Shown: positions 27,991 through 35,096 of the stretch, piece by piece
How positions within the stretch are numbered: position 1 is the stretch's first letter
Layout of the letters: each line of letters begins with the position of its first letter
Source of the DNA: Solwaraspora sp. WMMD792
GTDB taxonomy: Bacteria > Actinomycetota > Actinomycetes > Mycobacteriales > Micromonosporaceae
Reading direction: 5' to 3'
NCBI RefSeq assembly: GCF_029626105.1
Contig: NZ_JARUBH010000009.1
Location: 124,001 to 188,000 of the forward strand
Length of the DNA stretch: 64,000 nt
Notes under the pieces: generated by a model
Databases searched by the model: none
Seen by the model: only the letters and a program-made list of their open reading frames with translations
What the model was told of the DNA's origin: nothing
Translations under genes and position numbers: made by a program

Positions 27991-28040
27991 TCAGCGGTCC
28001 TGGTCCGGGTGAGACCGGCTCAGCGGTCCTGGTCCGGGTG
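27991..28040. repeat. 21-bp direct repeat spanning the sdhB stop
   Basis: A 21-bp sequence beginning TCAGCGGTCCTGG occurs at 27991-28011 and again at 28020-28040. The second copy encodes the last residues and stop of SdhB; the first lies between that stop and the terminator. It looks like a small local duplication of the gene end. Confidence 0.85.
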
Positions 28041-29072
28041 GTGGTAGTTGAGTGACTTGTCCGGCAGCGGGAAAGTGACGTCCTCGCCGAACGGCGACGG
28101 CGCGGCCGGCTTGTCGAACGCCAGCTCGCTGATCGGCAGGTGGCCCTTCTCGTCCACCGCCGCCGCCTGCGGGCGGGGCACCTGCTGGTGCCAGTTGACC
28201 CCGCGCTCGGCGTCGGCCGCCGCGCTGTGGTCACCGTCGGCCGGCAGCCCGGCGGTCGTGGCGGCCGGCTGGTCCAGGCCGGACTCACCGAGCGCCGGTC
28301 CACTCGCCGCCGCGCCGTTCTGCCCCCGCCGGAAGATCTTGCTGCCGAGCCACACGAGGGGATCGTACCGCCGGTCGACGACGCGCTCCTTCATCGGGAT
28401 GATCGCGTTGTCGGTGATCTTGATGTGCTCGGGGCAGACCTCGGTGCAGCACTTGGTGATGTTGCAGTAGCCGAGCCCCTGCTGCGCCTGCGCGTACTGC
28501 TTGCGGTCGGTCCTGGTGTCCAGCGGGTGCATGTCCAGCTCGGCGGCGCGGATGAACACCCGGGGACCGGAGAACGCGGTCTTGTTGTCCTCGTGGTCAC
28601 GTACCACGTGGCAGGTGTTCTGGCAGAGGAAGCACTCGATGCACTTGCGGAACTCCTGCGAGCGTTCCACGTCGACCTGCTGCATCCGGTACTCACCCGG
28701 CGCGAGGTCCTCCGGCGGGCTGAACGCCGGCGTCTCCAACGACTTCTGGTAGTTGAACGAGACGTCGGTGACCAGGTCGCGGATCACCGGGAAGGTCCGC
28801 AGCGGGCTGACGCTGATCGTCTCGTTCTCCTCGAACGTCGACATCCGCGTCATGCAGCCCAGCTTCGGCATGCCGTTGATCTCCATGGAGCAGGAGCCGC
28901 ACTTGCCGGCCTTGCAGTTCCACCGGCAGGCCAGATCCGGAGCCTCGGTGGCCTGCAGCCGGTGGATGACGTCGAGGACGACCTCGCCCTCGTTCACCTC
29001 CACCTGGTAGTCCTGCAGTTCGCCGCCGGTCTCGTCGCCCCGCCACACCCTGAAGTGGCGCTTGGTGCCCAT
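28020..29072 (-). CDS. sdhB: Succinate dehydrogenase iron-sulfur subunit
   Basis: The 350-residue product has the 2Fe-2S ligands Cys53, Cys58, Cys61 and Cys73 and the 4Fe-4S set CIECFLCQNTC (Cys144-154). The 3Fe-4S set is in CNITKCCTEVCP (Cys203-213). It passes electrons from the flavoprotein to the membrane subunit. About 100 residues at the C-terminus are low-complexity (Ala/Pro/Gly) and exceed the usual ~250-residue length. The ATG overlaps the sdhA stop by one base (TGATG), so translation is coupled. Confidence 0.96.
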   Translation of the reverse strand: MGTKRHFRVWRGDETGGELQDYQVEVNEGEVVLDVIHRLQATEAPDLACRWNCKAGKCGSCSMEINGMPKLGCMTRMSTFEENETISVSPLRTFPVIRDLVTDVSFNYQKSLETPAFSPPEDLAPGEYRMQQVDVERSQEFRKCIECFLCQNTCHVVRDHEDNKTAFSGPRVFIRAAELDMHPLDTRTDRKQYAQAQQGLGYCNITKCCTEVCPEHIKITDNAIIPMKERVVDRRYDPLVWLGSKIFRRGQNGAAASGPALGESGLDQPAATTAGLPADGDHSAAADAERGVNWHQQVPRPQAAAVDEKGHLPISELAFDKPAAPSPFGEDVTFPLPDKSLNYHHPDQDR

Positions 29073-31009
29073 CAGTTGTCCGCCTCCTCAGCGAGCGCGT
29101 CCTGCGCCAGCGCGTCGAACTCCGCCAACTCCTCGTCGGTCAGATACTTGGCCAGCTCCGCCCGGTCGAAGAGCTTGATCAGCTCCGGGCGCATCTTCGG
29201 CAGCGGCTTGTGCTCCAGCTTGACCGTGTCACCGTCCAGCGAGCAGACCAGGTTGACCGTGCGCCACGTCGGGGCCATGGTCGGGTGGTCCTCGCGGGTG
29301 TGCCCGCCCCGCGACTCGGTGCGCTCCAGCGCGGCCTTGGCGGTGCACTCCGAGACCACCAGCATGTTGCGCAGGTCCAGCGCCAGGTGCCAGCCCGGGT
29401 TGTAGCGCCGGCCGCCGGCGGCGCTGACCTTGGCCACCCGCTCACGTAGCTCGGCCAGCTTGACCAGCGAATCCGCCAGCTCACCCTCGCGCCGGATGAT
29501 GCCGACCAGGTCGCCCATCACCGCCTGCAGGTCCTGCTGCAGGGTGTACGGGTTCTCCCCGGTGTCGCGCGACAGCGGTGCCAGGGCCTGGTCCACCGCC
29601 TGCTCGACCTCGTCGGCCGAGACCTTCGGCCGCCGGTCCAGCCCGCCGACGTACGTGGCCGCGTGCTCGCCGGCCCGCTTGCCGAAGACCAGCAGGTCGG
29701 ACAGGGAGTTGCCGCCGAGGCGGTTGGAACCGTGCATACCGCCGGAGACCTCGCCGGCGGCGAACAGGCCGCTGATCCGGCCGGCCGCCGCAGCGGTGTC
29801 CGGGTCGACCTCGACGCCACCCATCACGTAGTGGCAGGTCGGCCCGACCTCCATCGGCTGCTTGGTGATGTCGACGTCGGCCAGCTCCTTGAACTGGTGG
29901 TACATCGACGGCAGCCGGCGACGGATCTCCTCTGCCGGCAGCCGGCTGGCGATGTCCAGCAGTACGCCGCCGGACTCCGTACCGCGACCGGCTTTGACCT
30001 CGCTGTTGATCGCCCGGGCGACCTCGTCACGGGGCAGCAGCTCCGGCGGACGCCGGTTGTTGTCCGGGTCGGTGTACCAGCGGTCCGCCTCCTCCTCGGT
30101 CTCCGCGTACTGCTTGCGGAACACGTCGGGGACGTAGTCGAACATGAACCGCTTGCCGTCGGTGTTGCGCAGCACCCCGCCGTCGCCCCGGACCGACTCG
30201 GTGACCAGGATGCCCTTCACCGAGGGCGGCCAGACCATGCCGGTCGGGTGGAACTGCAGGAACTCCATGTTGATCAGGGTGGCGCCGGCCCGCAGGGCGA
30301 GCGCGTGCCCGTCGCCGGTGTACTCCCAGGAGTTCGAGGTGACCTTGTACGACTTGCCGACCCCGCCGGTGGCCAGCACCACGGCCGGCGCCTCGAACAG
30401 GACGAACTCGCCGCTCTCCCGGTAGTAGCCGAAGGCACCGGCGACCCGGGGACCGTCCGGCCCGTCCTCCAGCATCAGCTCGGTGATGGTGGTTTCGGCG
30501 AAGACCTTGATCCGGGCGTCGTGGACGCCGTACTCCCGCTTGTCCTCCTGCTGCAGCGAGACGATTTTCTGCTGGAGGGTACGGATCAGCTCCAGGCCGG
30601 TGCGGTCACCGACGTGGGCCAGTCGCGGGTACTCGTGGCCGCCGAAGTTGCGCTGCGAGATCTTGCCGTCCTTCGTACGGTCGAACAGCGCGCCGTACGT
30701 CTCCAGCTCCCAGATCCGCTGCGGTGACTCCTTGGCGTGCAGCTCGGCCATCCGGAAGTTGTTCAGGAACTTGCCGCCGCGCATGGTGTCGCGGAAGTGC
30801 ACCTGCCAGCTGTCCCGGCTGTTCACGTTGCCCATCGCGGCGGCGGCGCCGCCCTCGGCCATCACCGTGTGCGCCTTGCCGAACAGCGACTTGGAGATGA
30901 TCGCGGTGCGTTTGCCGGCCAGTCGGGCCTCGATCGCCGCCCGCAGTCCGGCGCCGCCGGCGCCGATGACCACGACGTCGTAGTGGTGTCGTTCGATTCG
31001 GGTAGTCAT
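29072..31009 (-). CDS. sdhA: Succinate dehydrogenase flavoprotein subunit
   Basis: The 645-residue product oxidises succinate to fumarate with covalent FAD. It shows the FAD-binding start DVVVIGAGGAGLRAAIEA, the flavinylation His in SLFGKAHTVMAEGG, HPTGMVWPPSVKGILVTE near the substrate site, and GGMHGSNRLGGNSLSDLL. Length and layout match mycobacterial Sdh1 (about 646 residues). ATG 31009 is preceded by GAGGG. It lies 13 bp after sdhC. Confidence 0.97.
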   Translation of the reverse strand: MTTRIERHHYDVVVIGAGGAGLRAAIEARLAGKRTAIISKSLFGKAHTVMAEGGAAAAMGNVNSRDSWQVHFRDTMRGGKFLNNFRMAELHAKESPQRIWELETYGALFDRTKDGKISQRNFGGHEYPRLAHVGDRTGLELIRTLQQKIVSLQQEDKREYGVHDARIKVFAETTITELMLEDGPDGPRVAGAFGYYRESGEFVLFEAPAVVLATGGVGKSYKVTSNSWEYTGDGHALALRAGATLINMEFLQFHPTGMVWPPSVKGILVTESVRGDGGVLRNTDGKRFMFDYVPDVFRKQYAETEEEADRWYTDPDNNRRPPELLPRDEVARAINSEVKAGRGTESGGVLLDIASRLPAEEIRRRLPSMYHQFKELADVDITKQPMEVGPTCHYVMGGVEVDPDTAAAAGRISGLFAAGEVSGGMHGSNRLGGNSLSDLLVFGKRAGEHAATYVGGLDRRPKVSADEVEQAVDQALAPLSRDTGENPYTLQQDLQAVMGDLVGIIRREGELADSLVKLAELRERVAKVSAAGGRRYNPGWHLALDLRNMLVVSECTAKAALERTESRGGHTREDHPTMAPTWRTVNLVCSLDGDTVKLEHKPLPKMRPELIKLFDRAELAKYLTDEELAEFDALAQDALAEEADN

Positions 31010-31022
31010 ATCGTCCAAGCCC

Positions 31023-31829
31023 TCAGTTGAAGAACCGCAGGTCGCTGAACCAGCCGGCGGACAGCGCCATCACGTAGAAGTCGGTCAGCGCCAGGGTGCC
31101 GAGCGTGATCCAGGCCAGTTGCATGTGCCGGACGTTGAGCTTGGAGATGAACGTCCAGGCCCGGTACCGCACCGGGTGCTTGGAGAAGTGCTTCAGCCGG
31201 CCGCCGGCGATGTGCCGGCAGGAGTGGCAGGACAGGGTGTACGCCCAGAGCATGACCACGTTGCCGAGCAGGATGACGTTGCCCAGTCCGACCCCGAAGC
31301 CGTTCTCCCCGTCGAAGGCGAGCACCGCGTCCCAGCTGTTGATCAGCGAGATGATCACCGCAGCGTAGAAGGCGTAGCGGTGCGCGTTCTGGAAGATCAG
31401 CGGGAAGCGGGTCTCACCGGTGTAGCGCTGGTGGCCGTCCGGCACCGCACAGGCCGGCGGGGAGAGCCAGAACGCCCGGTAGTAGGCCTTGCGGTAGTAG
31501 TAGCAGGTCAGCCGGAACAGCAGCAGGAACGGCAGGGTCATCGCCGCGTCGGGGATGATCCACCAGCCGGGTAGGAACCGCCCGAAGTGCGCCGCCTCCG
31601 GTACGCAGCGTTCGGTGACGCACGGTGAGTAGAACGGGGTGAGGTAGTGGTGCTCCTGGACCCAGTAGAAGTCGTGCATGAAAACACGGACAGTGGCGTA
31701 GGTGACCCAGGCACCGAGTCCGATCACGGTGATCAGCGGGGGTAGCCACCACCGGTCGGTGCGCAACGTCTTCGCCGCGATGGCGGCGCGCGCCCGCGCC
31801 TGCCCCGGCATCGTTGCCGTAGTCGTCAT
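31023..31829 (-). CDS. sdhC: Succinate dehydrogenase membrane-anchor subunit
   Basis: The 268-residue integral membrane protein has about five helices and resembles the single large anchor of mycobacterial Sdh1 rather than the SdhC/SdhD pair. It contains DRWWLPPLITVIGLGAWVTY, a paired-Cys loop YSPCVTERCVPEA, and YTLSCHSCRHIAGGRLKHF with histidines suited to heme or quinone contacts. It is first in the sdhC-A-B operon. ATG 31829 has GGGAG upstream. Confidence 0.9.
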   Translation of the reverse strand: MTTTATMPGQARARAAIAAKTLRTDRWWLPPLITVIGLGAWVTYATVRVFMHDFYWVQEHHYLTPFYSPCVTERCVPEAAHFGRFLPGWWIIPDAAMTLPFLLLFRLTCYYYRKAYYRAFWLSPPACAVPDGHQRYTGETRFPLIFQNAHRYAFYAAVIISLINSWDAVLAFDGENGFGVGLGNVILLGNVVMLWAYTLSCHSCRHIAGGRLKHFSKHPVRYRAWTFISKLNVRHMQLAWITLGTLALTDFYVMALSAGWFSDLRFFN

Positions 31830-32144
31830 CCTGTCTCCCTGACGGGGCCCGACCCGCGCAAGGGTGGACCCGGATATCTTCGGCCGGTCTGTGGCGTAGC
31901 AGGGCAGAGCCCAGATTGCCGTGCGACCGCGTGCTCCGGAACCCGCACCACACGCATCGGCGGGCGCTGGTCCGGTGCACACGTTACGCCCAGTACCGGC
32001 GGCCGTATGCGCAAGGGAGTCTCGCCGGTATCGCGTCGGTTACGAAAGCCCGGCCCGCCGCTACGGGGGTGGATGTGCAGAAGCTCACTGGATCCCGAGC
32101 GGCGTCGGTCACAGATTGACAGCGAACGCGTCGTCAGGGGTGAC

Positions 32145-32175
32145 GGGCGGTGCGGTCGACCAGCCCGCACCGCCC
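32145..32175 (-). promoter_or_regulatory. Stable hairpin near the 5' end of the predicted sdh leader
   Basis: GGGCGGTGCGG (32145-32155) and CCGCACCGCCC (32165-32175) form a perfect 11-bp stem with a 9-base loop. It would begin about 25 nt downstream of the predicted transcription start. It could stabilise the RNA or be part of a regulatory fold. Confidence 0.5.
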
Positions 32176-32194
32176 ATCGCGGACCCACCAGAAG

Positions 32195-32213
32195 TGAGGT
32201 ATGGCTAACCTAA
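32195..32213. promoter_or_regulatory. Iron box (IdeR/DmdR operator)
   Basis: TGAGGTATGGCTAACCTAA matches the mycobacterial/streptomycete IdeR-DmdR consensus TTAGGTTAGGCTAACCTAA at 16 of 19 positions, with the right half perfect. It covers the -10 of the leftward promoter, as in iron-repressed promoters of these regulators. The match is seen in sequence; binding is inferred. Confidence 0.75.
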
Positions 32214-32235
32214 GCAATCCGCGTAGCGTCGTCAA
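32207..32235 (-). promoter_or_regulatory. Sigma70-type promoter for the sdh leader
   Basis: On the reverse strand, TTGACG (32230-32235) is followed by an optimal 17-bp spacer and TAGGTT (32207-32212), a TAnnnT-type -10. Transcription would start near 32199 and run toward sdhC, which begins at 31829. It lies just after the tldE stop, so it would separate sdh from the tldD-tldE transcript. Confidence 0.7.
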
Positions 32236-32253
32236 TCTCGCAATTCGCCGAGG

Positions 32254-33663
32254 TCAGCCGGCGGCGCCGCCGGTGATCTGCCAGTCCGCCAGGTGCAGGG
32301 CCGGCGCGTGCCAGGAGGTGTCGTCCCAACTGTCCGGCAACCGGCTCAACTCAGAGCCCAGACCCAGCACCGCACCGGGCGCGAGCGCCTGCGGATACGA
32401 CTGGGTGAACCGCAGACTGCGGACCGCCGCCACGATCTCGCCTGACTCGACCAGCCACGCACCGTTACGGGTCAGGCCGGTCACCACCAGGCTGCGTGGA
32501 TCGAGAATCCGGGTGTACCACAGGTCGGTGACCAGCAGACCACGCTCCACCCCGCCGAGCAGCGCCGCACTGCCCCCGGCCGCCGGCCCGTCGCCGCTGG
32601 CGGACTGCCAGCCATCGGCCGGGAGCAGCCGCAGATGCTGACCCACCGGCCCCCACGGGACGCTGCCCGGTGCCGCGTGTCCGGTCGAAGCGGTGCCGGC
32701 CGCCGCCGCGGTCCGTCGGTCGTGGGTGAGCGCCGTCGATCGGCCGGCGTCCACCAGCACCGTACGGCCGGTCGGGGTGCCCTCGGCGTCGAACGGCAGC
32801 CCGCCGCCGGTGGCCGGGTCGTCGACCAGCGAGATGGCCGGGTCGAACTGGGCCTCGCCGAGCCGGACGAACGACCGCCGTTCGTGGTGCGCCTTGCCGG
32901 CGAAGCCGTGCCGGGCCAGCATCTGCAACAGATCCAGCACCGCGGTCGGTTCGAGCACCACCGGGTAGCGCCCCGGCGGCAGGTCGACCGGGTGCCGGCC
33001 GGCCCGGGCCTTCACCGCGGCTCGGGCACCCAGCGCCGCGCCGTCGATCTCGGTCAGCCGGTCGGCCGCCTGCCGGGCCACCCCGTCGGCGCCGTCGGTC
33101 CGGGCGATCCCGTCCATCGCGGCCTCCGCCGACCGGCCACCGGCGGTCTGCCCGGCGCTGTTGGCGAACCCCGTCGACCGGTGCACGGTTCGGCAGAATC
33201 CGGCGCATTCCAGACCACCTGCGGCCGCGACGAAGTCCCGCACCCGGGCCGCCCGCTCCGCCGGACCGGCCTGCGCGGTCGCCTCGTCCCACGAACCGGC
33301 CGCGTGTAGCGGCGCCGGCCCGGCCAGCCCTGGCCAGGCCGGATCCGGCGGGCAGAGCCGGGCTGCCGCCAAAGTGCGCTCGACCAGGTCGGCCAACCCG
33401 TCCGGGCCGGTCAGCGTGGTCGAACCGATCGCGGTCCGGCCGTCGACGTGCAACCGCAGCCACACCGTGGTGACCGCCTCGGCGACGTTCTGGTGGATGA
33501 ACGAGTTGGCGAACCGGGTCAGTGCCAGCGCCCGATGGCTGACGTACGCCTCGGCCTGCGCGTCCGGTCCGGCGGCCCGCCGGACCAGTTCCACCACCCG
33601 GAGGGCCAGGTCGGTTTCGGCGGGCGACGTCGCCGCGCCGGTCAGCCCCGCGTCCAGACTCAC
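32254..33663 (-). CDS. tldE: TldE/PmbA-family metalloprotease subunit
   Basis: The 469-residue product is the partner subunit of TldD. It has the TldD/PmbA fold, with ALTRFANSFIHQNVAEAV near the N-terminus and LVVTGLTRNGAWLVESGEIV in the C-terminal barrel, and it lacks the HExxxH zinc motif, as expected. TldD/TldE complexes digest unfolded peptides and mature some ribosomal peptides (known for the family). It starts at GTG 33663, overlapping the tldD stop by four bases. Confidence 0.92.
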   Translation of the reverse strand: MSLDAGLTGAATSPAETDLALRVVELVRRAAGPDAQAEAYVSHRALALTRFANSFIHQNVAEAVTTVWLRLHVDGRTAIGSTTLTGPDGLADLVERTLAAARLCPPDPAWPGLAGPAPLHAAGSWDEATAQAGPAERAARVRDFVAAAGGLECAGFCRTVHRSTGFANSAGQTAGGRSAEAAMDGIARTDGADGVARQAADRLTEIDGAALGARAAVKARAGRHPVDLPPGRYPVVLEPTAVLDLLQMLARHGFAGKAHHERRSFVRLGEAQFDPAISLVDDPATGGGLPFDAEGTPTGRTVLVDAGRSTALTHDRRTAAAAGTASTGHAAPGSVPWGPVGQHLRLLPADGWQSASGDGPAAGGSAALLGGVERGLLVTDLWYTRILDPRSLVVTGLTRNGAWLVESGEIVAAVRSLRFTQSYPQALAPGAVLGLGSELSRLPDSWDDTSWHAPALHLADWQITGGAAG

Positions 33664-35096
33664 CCGCGTACCCCCACCCGGACGTTGGTGAACCGGGCCG
33701 GCGCCGCCGGGTGCCCGGTGTGCCCGACCTGGCCGGGCTGGCCCTTGCCGCAGTTCGGCGTCCCCCAGGCGACGCTCTCCGACGACAGCATGTCCATCGA
33801 CCGCCAGAACACCGGGCCGATCCCGGTGTACGTCGGGTTGCGCAGCATCCGCCCCAACTTGCCGTTGCGGATCTCCCAGCCGATCTCACACCCGAACTGG
33901 AAGTTGAGCCGCTTGTCGTCGATCGACCAGGACCGGTTGATGTCCATCAGTACCCCGTGGTCGGTCGCCGCGATCATCTCGTCCAACGTGTGCGGCCCCG
34001 GCTCCAGACCGACGTTGGTCATCCGGACCATCGGCAGCCGCGACCAGCCGTCCGCCCGCACGCTGCCGCCGTGGTCCAGGCCGGCGACGGCGGCCGAGTC
34101 CCGACCGGCCAGTACGCCGACCCACCGGCCCTGCCGGACCGCGTCCCGCTTGACCGCCGGGCTGCCCTCGTCGTCGAACCCGAAACTGCCCAGCGCGCCC
34201 GGGATGGTCGGGTCGATCGTCACGTTCATCAGCTCGGATCCGTACCGCAGGCTGCCGAGTTGGGCCAGGTCCAGCCAGGACGTGCCGGCGAAGGCGGCCT
34301 CCCAGCCGAGGATCCGGTCCAGTTCGATGGCGTGCCCGACCGACTCGTGGATCTGCAACGCCATCTGCTCCCCGCCGAGGATCAGCGTGGTCTCCCCGGC
34401 CGGGCAGGCCGGCGCGGTGAGCAACGCCCGTGCCTCCTCGGCGATCCGGGCGGCGTGCGCCGGCAGGTCCAGGCTGTCGACCAGTTCCCAGCCGCTGGTG
34501 CCGTACTGGCCGCGGTGGCTCGGATAGGAGCGGCGCTGGGTCTCCCCGTCACCGATCACCGTCGCGGACAGCCCCGCACCGCACTCGCGGATCCGCTGGT
34601 CGATCCGGTGCCCCTCGCTGGAGACGAACCACTTCTCGGTGTCCCAGATCTGGTACAGCCCTTCGGCCAGGTCGGCGCCGTGGTCGAGCATCGTGCGGGT
34701 GGCCGACACCAGCAGATCGCCCTTGTCCGGCAGCGGCACCGACAGCGGGTCGATCCGGCACGGGCTGGACCAGCTCGCGGTGCCGGCCCCGGCCGGCACC
34801 AGGTCGATCGGCGGCCCGGGCACCTGGGCGCTGGCCGCGGCGATCTTCGCCGCCCGACCACCGGCGGCCCGCGCCGCCGCCGGCGACGGATCCGGTACGG
34901 CGTAGAAGCCCCAACTGGAACCGACCAGTGCGCGGACGCCGAGACCGGCGTCGCTGTGCTGGACCAGCGCCTCGATCTCGCCGTTGCGCGCGGTCATCGA
35001 CTCGTAACGGCGGTGCATCACCCGCGCGTCGGCGTACCGGGCGCCGGCGTCGAGTGCCGCCTGCACGGCGGCCGTCGCCACCTCGAACTGGGTCAC
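33660..35096 (-). CDS. tldD: TldD-family zinc metalloprotease
   Basis: The 478-residue product carries the zinc motif HESVGH (His250, Glu251, His255) and the downstream Cys in FQFGCEIGWEI that completes the site. It is the catalytic half of a heterodimer with TldE. It lies 59 bp after an S9-peptidase-like gene on the same strand, so S9-tldD-tldE may be one transcript. No precursor peptide is obvious nearby. Confidence 0.93.
   Translation of the reverse strand: MTQFEVATAAVQAALDAGARYADARVMHRRYESMTARNGEIEALVQHSDAGLGVRALVGSSWGFYAVPDPSPAAARAAGGRAAKIAAASAQVPGPPIDLVPAGAGTASWSSPCRIDPLSVPLPDKGDLLVSATRTMLDHGADLAEGLYQIWDTEKWFVSSEGHRIDQRIRECGAGLSATVIGDGETQRRSYPSHRGQYGTSGWELVDSLDLPAHAARIAEEARALLTAPACPAGETTLILGGEQMALQIHESVGHAIELDRILGWEAAFAGTSWLDLAQLGSLRYGSELMNVTIDPTIPGALGSFGFDDEGSPAVKRDAVRQGRWVGVLAGRDSAAVAGLDHGGSVRADGWSRLPMVRMTNVGLEPGPHTLDEMIAATDHGVLMDINRSWSIDDKRLNFQFGCEIGWEIRNGKLGRMLRNPTYTGIGPVFWRSMDMLSSESVAWGTPNCGKGQPGQVGHTGHPAAPARFTNVRVGVRG

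Follow-up and report, generated by a model that had tools for sequence, protein, structure and literature searches.

How does a promoter of the kind that iron shuts down come to lie upstream of the genes for succinate dehydrogenase, so that an Fe-S enzyme is seemingly repressed by iron? The locus lies in a 64,000-nt stretch of Solwaraspora sp. WMMD792 DNA, called the window here, whose minus strand carries tldD, tldE, a 424-nt gap, sdhC, sdhA and sdhB in that order (Table 1). A TTGACG element begins 18 nt past the tldE stop, inside the gap. The succinate dehydrogenase, whose SdhC and SdhA match structure 7d6v, is presumably of the Sdh1 type. Its SdhC has no Pfam or NCBIfam match; named relatives of this SdhC, up to 87% identical, come mostly from Micromonospora, and some from Plantactinospora, Asanoa and other genera. 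The window also contains mshB.

Table 1. Features of the tldE-sdhC region in window coordinates.
Feature	Position	Strand	Remarks
-35 element TTGACG	32230..32235	-	invariant in 7/7 genus members; also in G066
Spacer between -35 and -10, 17 nt	32229-32213	-	17-18 across the genus
-10 element TAGGTT	32207..32212	-	direct reading
IdeR/DmdR box TTAGGTTAGCCATACCTCA, 16/19, over the -10 and the predicted start	32195..32213	-	96% mean pairwise identity in the genus
Predicted 5' head of the candidate RNA	32179..32200	-	CTTCTGGTGGGTCCGC; identical in 5/7 genomes, small changes in L004 and L005
14-bp hairpin	32142..32178	-	arms 32178-32165 and 32155-32142; apex GCUGGUCGA at 32164-32156
Putative proximal sdh promoter/regulatory region	31974..32090	-	CAGTGAGCTTCTGCACATCC ... 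CTTTCGTAACC ... GGCGTAACGTGTGCACC; three blocks 97-100% identical in the genus
sdhC (membrane anchor)	31023..31829	-	PDB 7d6v chain C, E 2.1e-118
sdhA	29072..31018	-	NCBIfam PRK07803; 7d6v chain A
sdhB	28020..29072	-	NCBIfam PRK12386
tldE/pmbA-like gene, 3' flank bears the promoter-hairpin unit	32254..33663	-	Pfam PmbA_TldD domains
tldD-like gene	33660..35096	-	Pfam PmbA_TldD domains; NCBIfam TldD models below cut-offs

Re-reading of the minus strand confirmed the promoter described in an earlier note on this DNA: TTGACG, a 17-nt spacer and TAGGTT, with an IdeR/DmdR box matching at 16 of 19 positions over the -10. Boxes were scored against TTAGGTTAGSCTAACCTAA, which we take to be the IdeR/DmdR consensus. 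This pattern is similar to the DtxR sites described in passages of PMC1382209. The window as a whole holds one match with at most three mismatches, the box itself, and 100 dinucleotide-preserving shuffles of the window gave none; across the whole genome (7.4 Mb) 11 box places were found, against none with the reversed pattern. A generic promoter scan of 31700-32400 found no sigma-70 site, because TAGGTT has three of the six TATAAT bases and four were demanded. The case for a promoter rests on the -35 element, which stays invariant in all seven genomes of the genus where flank and spacer are 43% identical.

Transcription is predicted to start near 32200, 371 nt from the sdhC ATG at 31829. The box overlaps the core promoter, lying over TAGGTT, and a similar arrangement of box and -10 can be seen by eye at a siderophore promoter (L154). 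This position implies repression when iron is high and firing when it is low, and the earlier proposal of an IdeR/DmdR-repressed promoter is, as a prediction, well supported by sequence comparison.

Eight of the other ten box places in the genome adjoin siderophore or heme genes. The neighbours are an ABC ATPase with a periplasmic binding protein, a GNAT acetyltransferase together with a decarboxylase/ornithine-monooxygenase pair (two boxes), a siderophore-interacting protein (next to two sites, the protein being scanned at one of them), HtaA (two boxes) and a second binding protein; at sites L157 and L158 no iron link was established. One gene of the DtxR family scored over the cut-off, and two weaker matches fell short of it. 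Among solved structures the product of this gene is closest to IdeR (1fx7, E 2.8e-74), and by this similarity an IdeR orthologue is present in the genome. The siderophore-interacting-protein site shows the same gene start and IdeR box twice (G000:C1:15405 and G000:C9:2529635), on the main contig and a 25.7-kb contig, which is either a duplication or an assembly artefact.

Within the genus, the 16/19 box was found in all seven genomes compared, beginning 382-432 nt upstream of sdhC, and conservation around it is sharply bounded. The 23 alignment columns upstream of the -35 are 43% identical, the -35 itself 100% and the 17-column spacer 43%; identity then rises to 96% in the box, 86% in the 17 columns from box to hairpin, 86% and 92% in the hairpin arms and 100% at the apex. 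The conserved unit thus delimited spans the -35 to the hairpin. Past the hairpin come 72 columns at 26% identity, 48 of them gapped, then a short block at 95%, and then the sdh upstream blocks at 97-100%. Two conserved stretches parted by poor columns argue for two separate constrained units in the tldE-sdhC gap. The one nearer sdhC probably has the role of an sdh promoter; the stretches between its blocks are 77-80% identical in the genus, and 77 of 80 named relatives carry GTAACGTGTG ahead of sdhC. The conserved block at 31974-32090 can also be read as CTCCCTTGCGCAT ... GGCGTAACGTGTGCACC, with an imperfect palindrome around GTGAAGTTCTGCAC in relatives.

The unit that follows tldE ends in a hairpin whose 14 pairs are all kept in the seven genus members. 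When the one carrier from another genus, G066, was added, 98.2% of cells in the alignment were paired and 5 of the 14 pairs showed a double compensatory change. None of 500 shuffles of this eight-sequence alignment reached the observed pairing or double-change count, and slid controls were 31-59% paired; both controls leave relatedness in, and the eight sequences are related. L003 contributes two of the five double changes and G066 the other three, and for the seven genus members alone 15 of 500 shuffles reached the observed pairing (a second, 4-pair helix included). The apex UGGUCG is identical in all eight sequences. Fold z-scores for six genus sequences ran from -2.67 to -4.12; the G066 sequence, at z -1.27, was not unusual against its shuffles. 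Across these few, related sequences the unit has the conserved RNA structure expected of an sRNA.

A terminator scan found none at the hairpin, and no T-run lies behind it. Strong hairpins (-25 kcal/mol or lower) occur within 170 nt past the tldE stop in 82 of 158 loci, a count that has no shuffled control and in which some windows may reach into the next gene. With strong hairpins so common past tldE, it is plausible that transcription stops between tldE and sdhC; at this locus the hairpin follows the promoter. It is a candidate 3' end for a short RNA and perhaps also the tldD-tldE terminator. The window gave no Rfam match at the gathering score, and with E up to 5 the best match in 31820-32260 was EcpR1, at 20.7 bits against 60 needed.

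Two further readings of the candidate RNA were rejected. A GTG stands near +15 in six of the seven genus members, one frame being kept in five; the GTG is missing in L004, the frame is shifted in L003, and lengths range from 34 to 169 aa; start, frame or stop vary between genomes, and there is no conserved small ORF. Direct pairing with the starts of sdhC, sdhA and sdhB was not better than background, the fraction of background windows at least as strong being 0.19-0.57 for the head, 0.48-0.99 for the loop and 0.38-0.96 for the whole RNA.

The arrangement in G066 bears most directly on the link to sdh. This genome belongs to another genus, represented by that one genome, and its SdhC (89% identical) is the closest outside the window's genus among 150 family genomes. 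Promoter, box and hairpin again lie directly behind tldE: TTGACG, 17 nt and TAACTT (the best -10 by eye) run into the box TTAGGTGAGCCTTACCGAA, which matches at 16 of 19 positions (locus L188). Here a gene of 225 aa stands between the unit and sdhC. It starts about 110 nt downstream of the promoter, and the box is 1070 nt from sdhC. This arrangement indicates that the promoter-hairpin unit belongs to the flank of tldE and not to sdhC. An RNA model built from the genus members alone (R1) did not report G066 at E 0.05 among 150 family genomes, of which we infer G066 to be one; its homology rests on position, promoter, box and apex.

The 225-aa gene has homologues in 28 of 149 loci, counting G066, but the seven genomes of the window's genus lack them. 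By eye the protein (L188 2569-3246) shows a single hydrophobic stretch; Pfam gave no match for it at E 0.01.

The earlier note implied that the box controls sdh, and that link is weakened, since G066 has another gene in between and sdhC has a conserved upstream block of its own. As a target of the box, sdh has lost ground through G066. The suspicion voiced alongside it, that something other than plain sdh mRNA may be transcribed in low iron, is well supported by sequence.

The box itself has a narrow distribution. Conservation in close relatives, which the earlier note made a check of its reading, holds within the genus and fails in the named relatives: none of these 80, mostly Micromonospora, has a box of at least 13/19 within 1200 nt upstream of sdhC (in some named loci the stretch scanned was shorter: L074 949, L105 722 and L123 670 nt). 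A first further set of 50 loci gave, besides the boxes of the seven, one at 16/19 (G036), one at 15 (G040), one at 14 and two at 13; the next 107 loci gave one at 16 (L188, G066), one at 14 and one at 13. In 88 loci these scans covered about 700 nt, so that boxes further up would not show, and several genomes occur both among the named relatives and in the further sets, so that counts of loci are not counts of genomes. Behind the tldE stop, which was found in 160 loci, a 16/19 box occurs in nine (the seven, G036 and G066), the next best being 14.

Boxes of other kinds were seen along the way. In G036 (L045) a 16/19 IdeR box lies behind tldE, 281 nt upstream of sdhC, with a different hairpin and no TTGACG -35. 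Two genomes of one genus in another family, G040 (L031 1874-1892) and G174 (L186 1373-1391), have DtxR-type boxes (15/19 and 14/19) that precede the SdhC match by about 127 nt. Actinobacteria may have gained iron boxes in front of sdh on several occasions.

Searches with RNA models outlined the same small set of carriers. Over 150 family genomes R1 returned 26 rows, seven of them genus members; a box check of 20 matched loci gave nothing above 12/19 in the 13 that are not from these seven. A second model, R2, was built from all eight carriers and run over 354 family genomes, where it returned 76 rows: the eight carriers scored 68-103 bits, by construction, and 62 other family genomes 25-40 bits. 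Seventeen non-carrier rows were viewed and comprised 11 dnaK leaders, 5 plain hairpins and 1 IdeR-boxed decarboxylase leader (G167). A row from G004 proved to be an HtaA heme locus. The other 50 rows (49 loci), together with one row of the order-wide search below (G411), were sorted by script into 26 dnaK leaders, 8 loci whose IdeR box has 17-19 matches, and a remainder of 16; when those eight boxed loci were viewed, the 14-bp hairpin with UGGUCG apex was absent from them. Over 397 genomes of the order, R2 found 15 genomes at E 1e-4, among them a plain hairpin in G389, and no further carrier near the scores of the eight. Both R2 searches used stricter filters, by which weak matches are lost. 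Among the genomes searched, the unit is carried by eight only.

We propose that the product of an IdeR-repressed promoter is a short RNA, ending at the hairpin and acting in trans during iron limitation, a reading in which our confidence is evenly poised. When iron is replete, IdeR would cover the -10 and start of a sigma-70-type promoter just behind tldE; when iron is poor, IdeR would come off and the promoter would fire. The RNA would consist of a conserved head of about 20 nt and the strong 14-bp hairpin with its UGGUCG apex, and would most likely end at or just past the hairpin, giving a discrete species of about 60-65 nt. Its action would probably be in trans, as part of the response to iron limitation, like that of an iron-sparing sRNA. 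Judged by sequence and conservation, its promoter is under the iron regulator. A short RNA is favoured because conservation ends sharply at the hairpin, because the unit survives a change of the downstream gene and because hairpins past tldE are common. The missing T-run speaks against it. So does G167, in which the leader of a pyridoxal-dependent decarboxylase gene contains a hairpin downstream of a perfect IdeR box: transcripts that begin at an IdeR box do not necessarily end at the next hairpin.

FsrA of Bacillus subtilis and RyhB of Escherichia coli are iron-repressor-controlled RNAs of the iron-sparing response; both are Fur-controlled, and their proven targets include sdh. The candidate RNA resembles them in standing, by its sequence, under an iron repressor, but they belong to other phyla and it lacks supported pairing with sdh. 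Another likeness in kind is MrsI (ncRv11846), a mycobacterial iron-sparing sRNA with an IdeR site near its start, outlined in sections of the review PMC11188477 as a structured 100-nt RNA that has an apical loop and a short seed. By description both are actinobacterial and have an IdeR site near the start; the candidate, a predicted structured short RNA, differs in lineage and would be shorter. Iron sparing of Sdh is treated in passages of PMC2975660, and the main text of PMC12161575, on the DmdR1 regulon, does not mention succinate dehydrogenase. In the open-access PMC literature we found no paper on an iron-controlled sRNA in Micromonosporaceae.

More tentatively, and with somewhat less confidence than doubt, we suggest a lineage-specific iron-sparing sRNA of Micromonosporaceae-like bacteria: IdeR-repressed, formed in the gap before the sdh operon out of an iron promoter and the 3' flank of tldE, pairing through its UGGUCG apex and head, and confined to two related lineages. 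If this is true, it suggests a way for bacteria bearing siderophore genes to spare iron while leaving iron enzymes free of direct repression, and its restriction to two lineages would catch an iron sRNA shortly after it arose. A short RNA would also offer a way out of the paradox with which we began.

The alternative that survives best, though we think it unlikely, is that the promoter makes a low-iron sdhCAB mRNA with a leader of about 370 nt, in which the hairpin is a 5' stabiliser or an attenuator. Expression of sdh could then be deliberately raised, or the long isoform could lower it by interfering with the proximal promoter, which would be the expected iron-sparing direction. Promoter and sdhC are on the same strand with no listed gene between them, the hairpin has no T-run, and hairpins do occur in the IdeR-boxed leader of G167 and in dnaK leaders. 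Against this, the stretch from the hairpin to the sdh blocks is poorly conserved and rich in indels, hairpins after tldE are common in the family, and in G066 sdhC is 1070 nt off behind another gene. There the unit is not tied to sdhC as such a leader would demand; in the window's genus read-through could still occur.

Less probable again is a role for far-upstream IdeR as an activator or insulator of sdh when iron is high, on the model proposed for DtxR in Corynebacterium glutamicum, the promoter being weak or silent. Passages of PMC1382209 give predicted DtxR boxes upstream of sdh in three Corynebacterium species and lower sdh expression in a C. glutamicum dtxR mutant, and the boxes upstream of sdhC in G040, G174 and G036 fit the same idea. 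The Corynebacterium sites upstream of sdhCD/sdhCAB resemble ours as predicted iron-regulator boxes at a distance (PMC1382209), but sdh there is raised by iron and DtxR, according to parts of PMC13001254. That article describes sdh as iron- and DtxR-induced and discusses RipA, and its main text makes no mention of an sRNA or small RNA; in Corynebacterium iron could also act on sdh through the repressor RipA (passages of PMC1382209 and PMC13001254). It also counts against this reading that our box covers the -10 of a conserved promoter, in a layout shared, by eye, with the siderophore promoter L154, and that the box of G066 lies 1070 nt from sdhC.

It is also rather improbable that the promoter served the 225-aa gene in G066 and in an ancestor, and is a leftover in the window's genus after loss of that gene. 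The short spacing between promoter and gene in G066, the scatter of homologues and their absence from the genus agree with this, and AATCTGTGACC near 32117 resembles, by eye, the end of the 225-aa gene. A leftover would hardly keep its -35, box, head, hairpin and apex across seven species, and of the loci with the 225-aa gene G066 alone has a box of at least 13/19 in the upstream stretches scanned. That the box is a functionless chance match, as an imperfect 16/19 site might suggest, is very hard to reconcile with its absence from the 100 shuffles and from the reversed control in 7.4 Mb and with its presence in all seven genomes.

Two minor observations concern folded leaders elsewhere. In G324 (L344 201-219) an 18/19 IdeR box precedes a leader that folds strongly (-37.5 kcal/mol), with no start codon directly behind the box. 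The dnaK leaders L303, L304, L307-L309, L313-L317 and L319 (genus g4) and L320-L326 (the window's genus) resemble the unit; within the window's genus the likeness is short and not significant by BLAST. They carry an inverted repeat, presumably of the HspR type, then in most the head ACTTGTGGTGGG, and then a GC hairpin resembling the tldE-flank unit, a likeness that is probably a coincidence.
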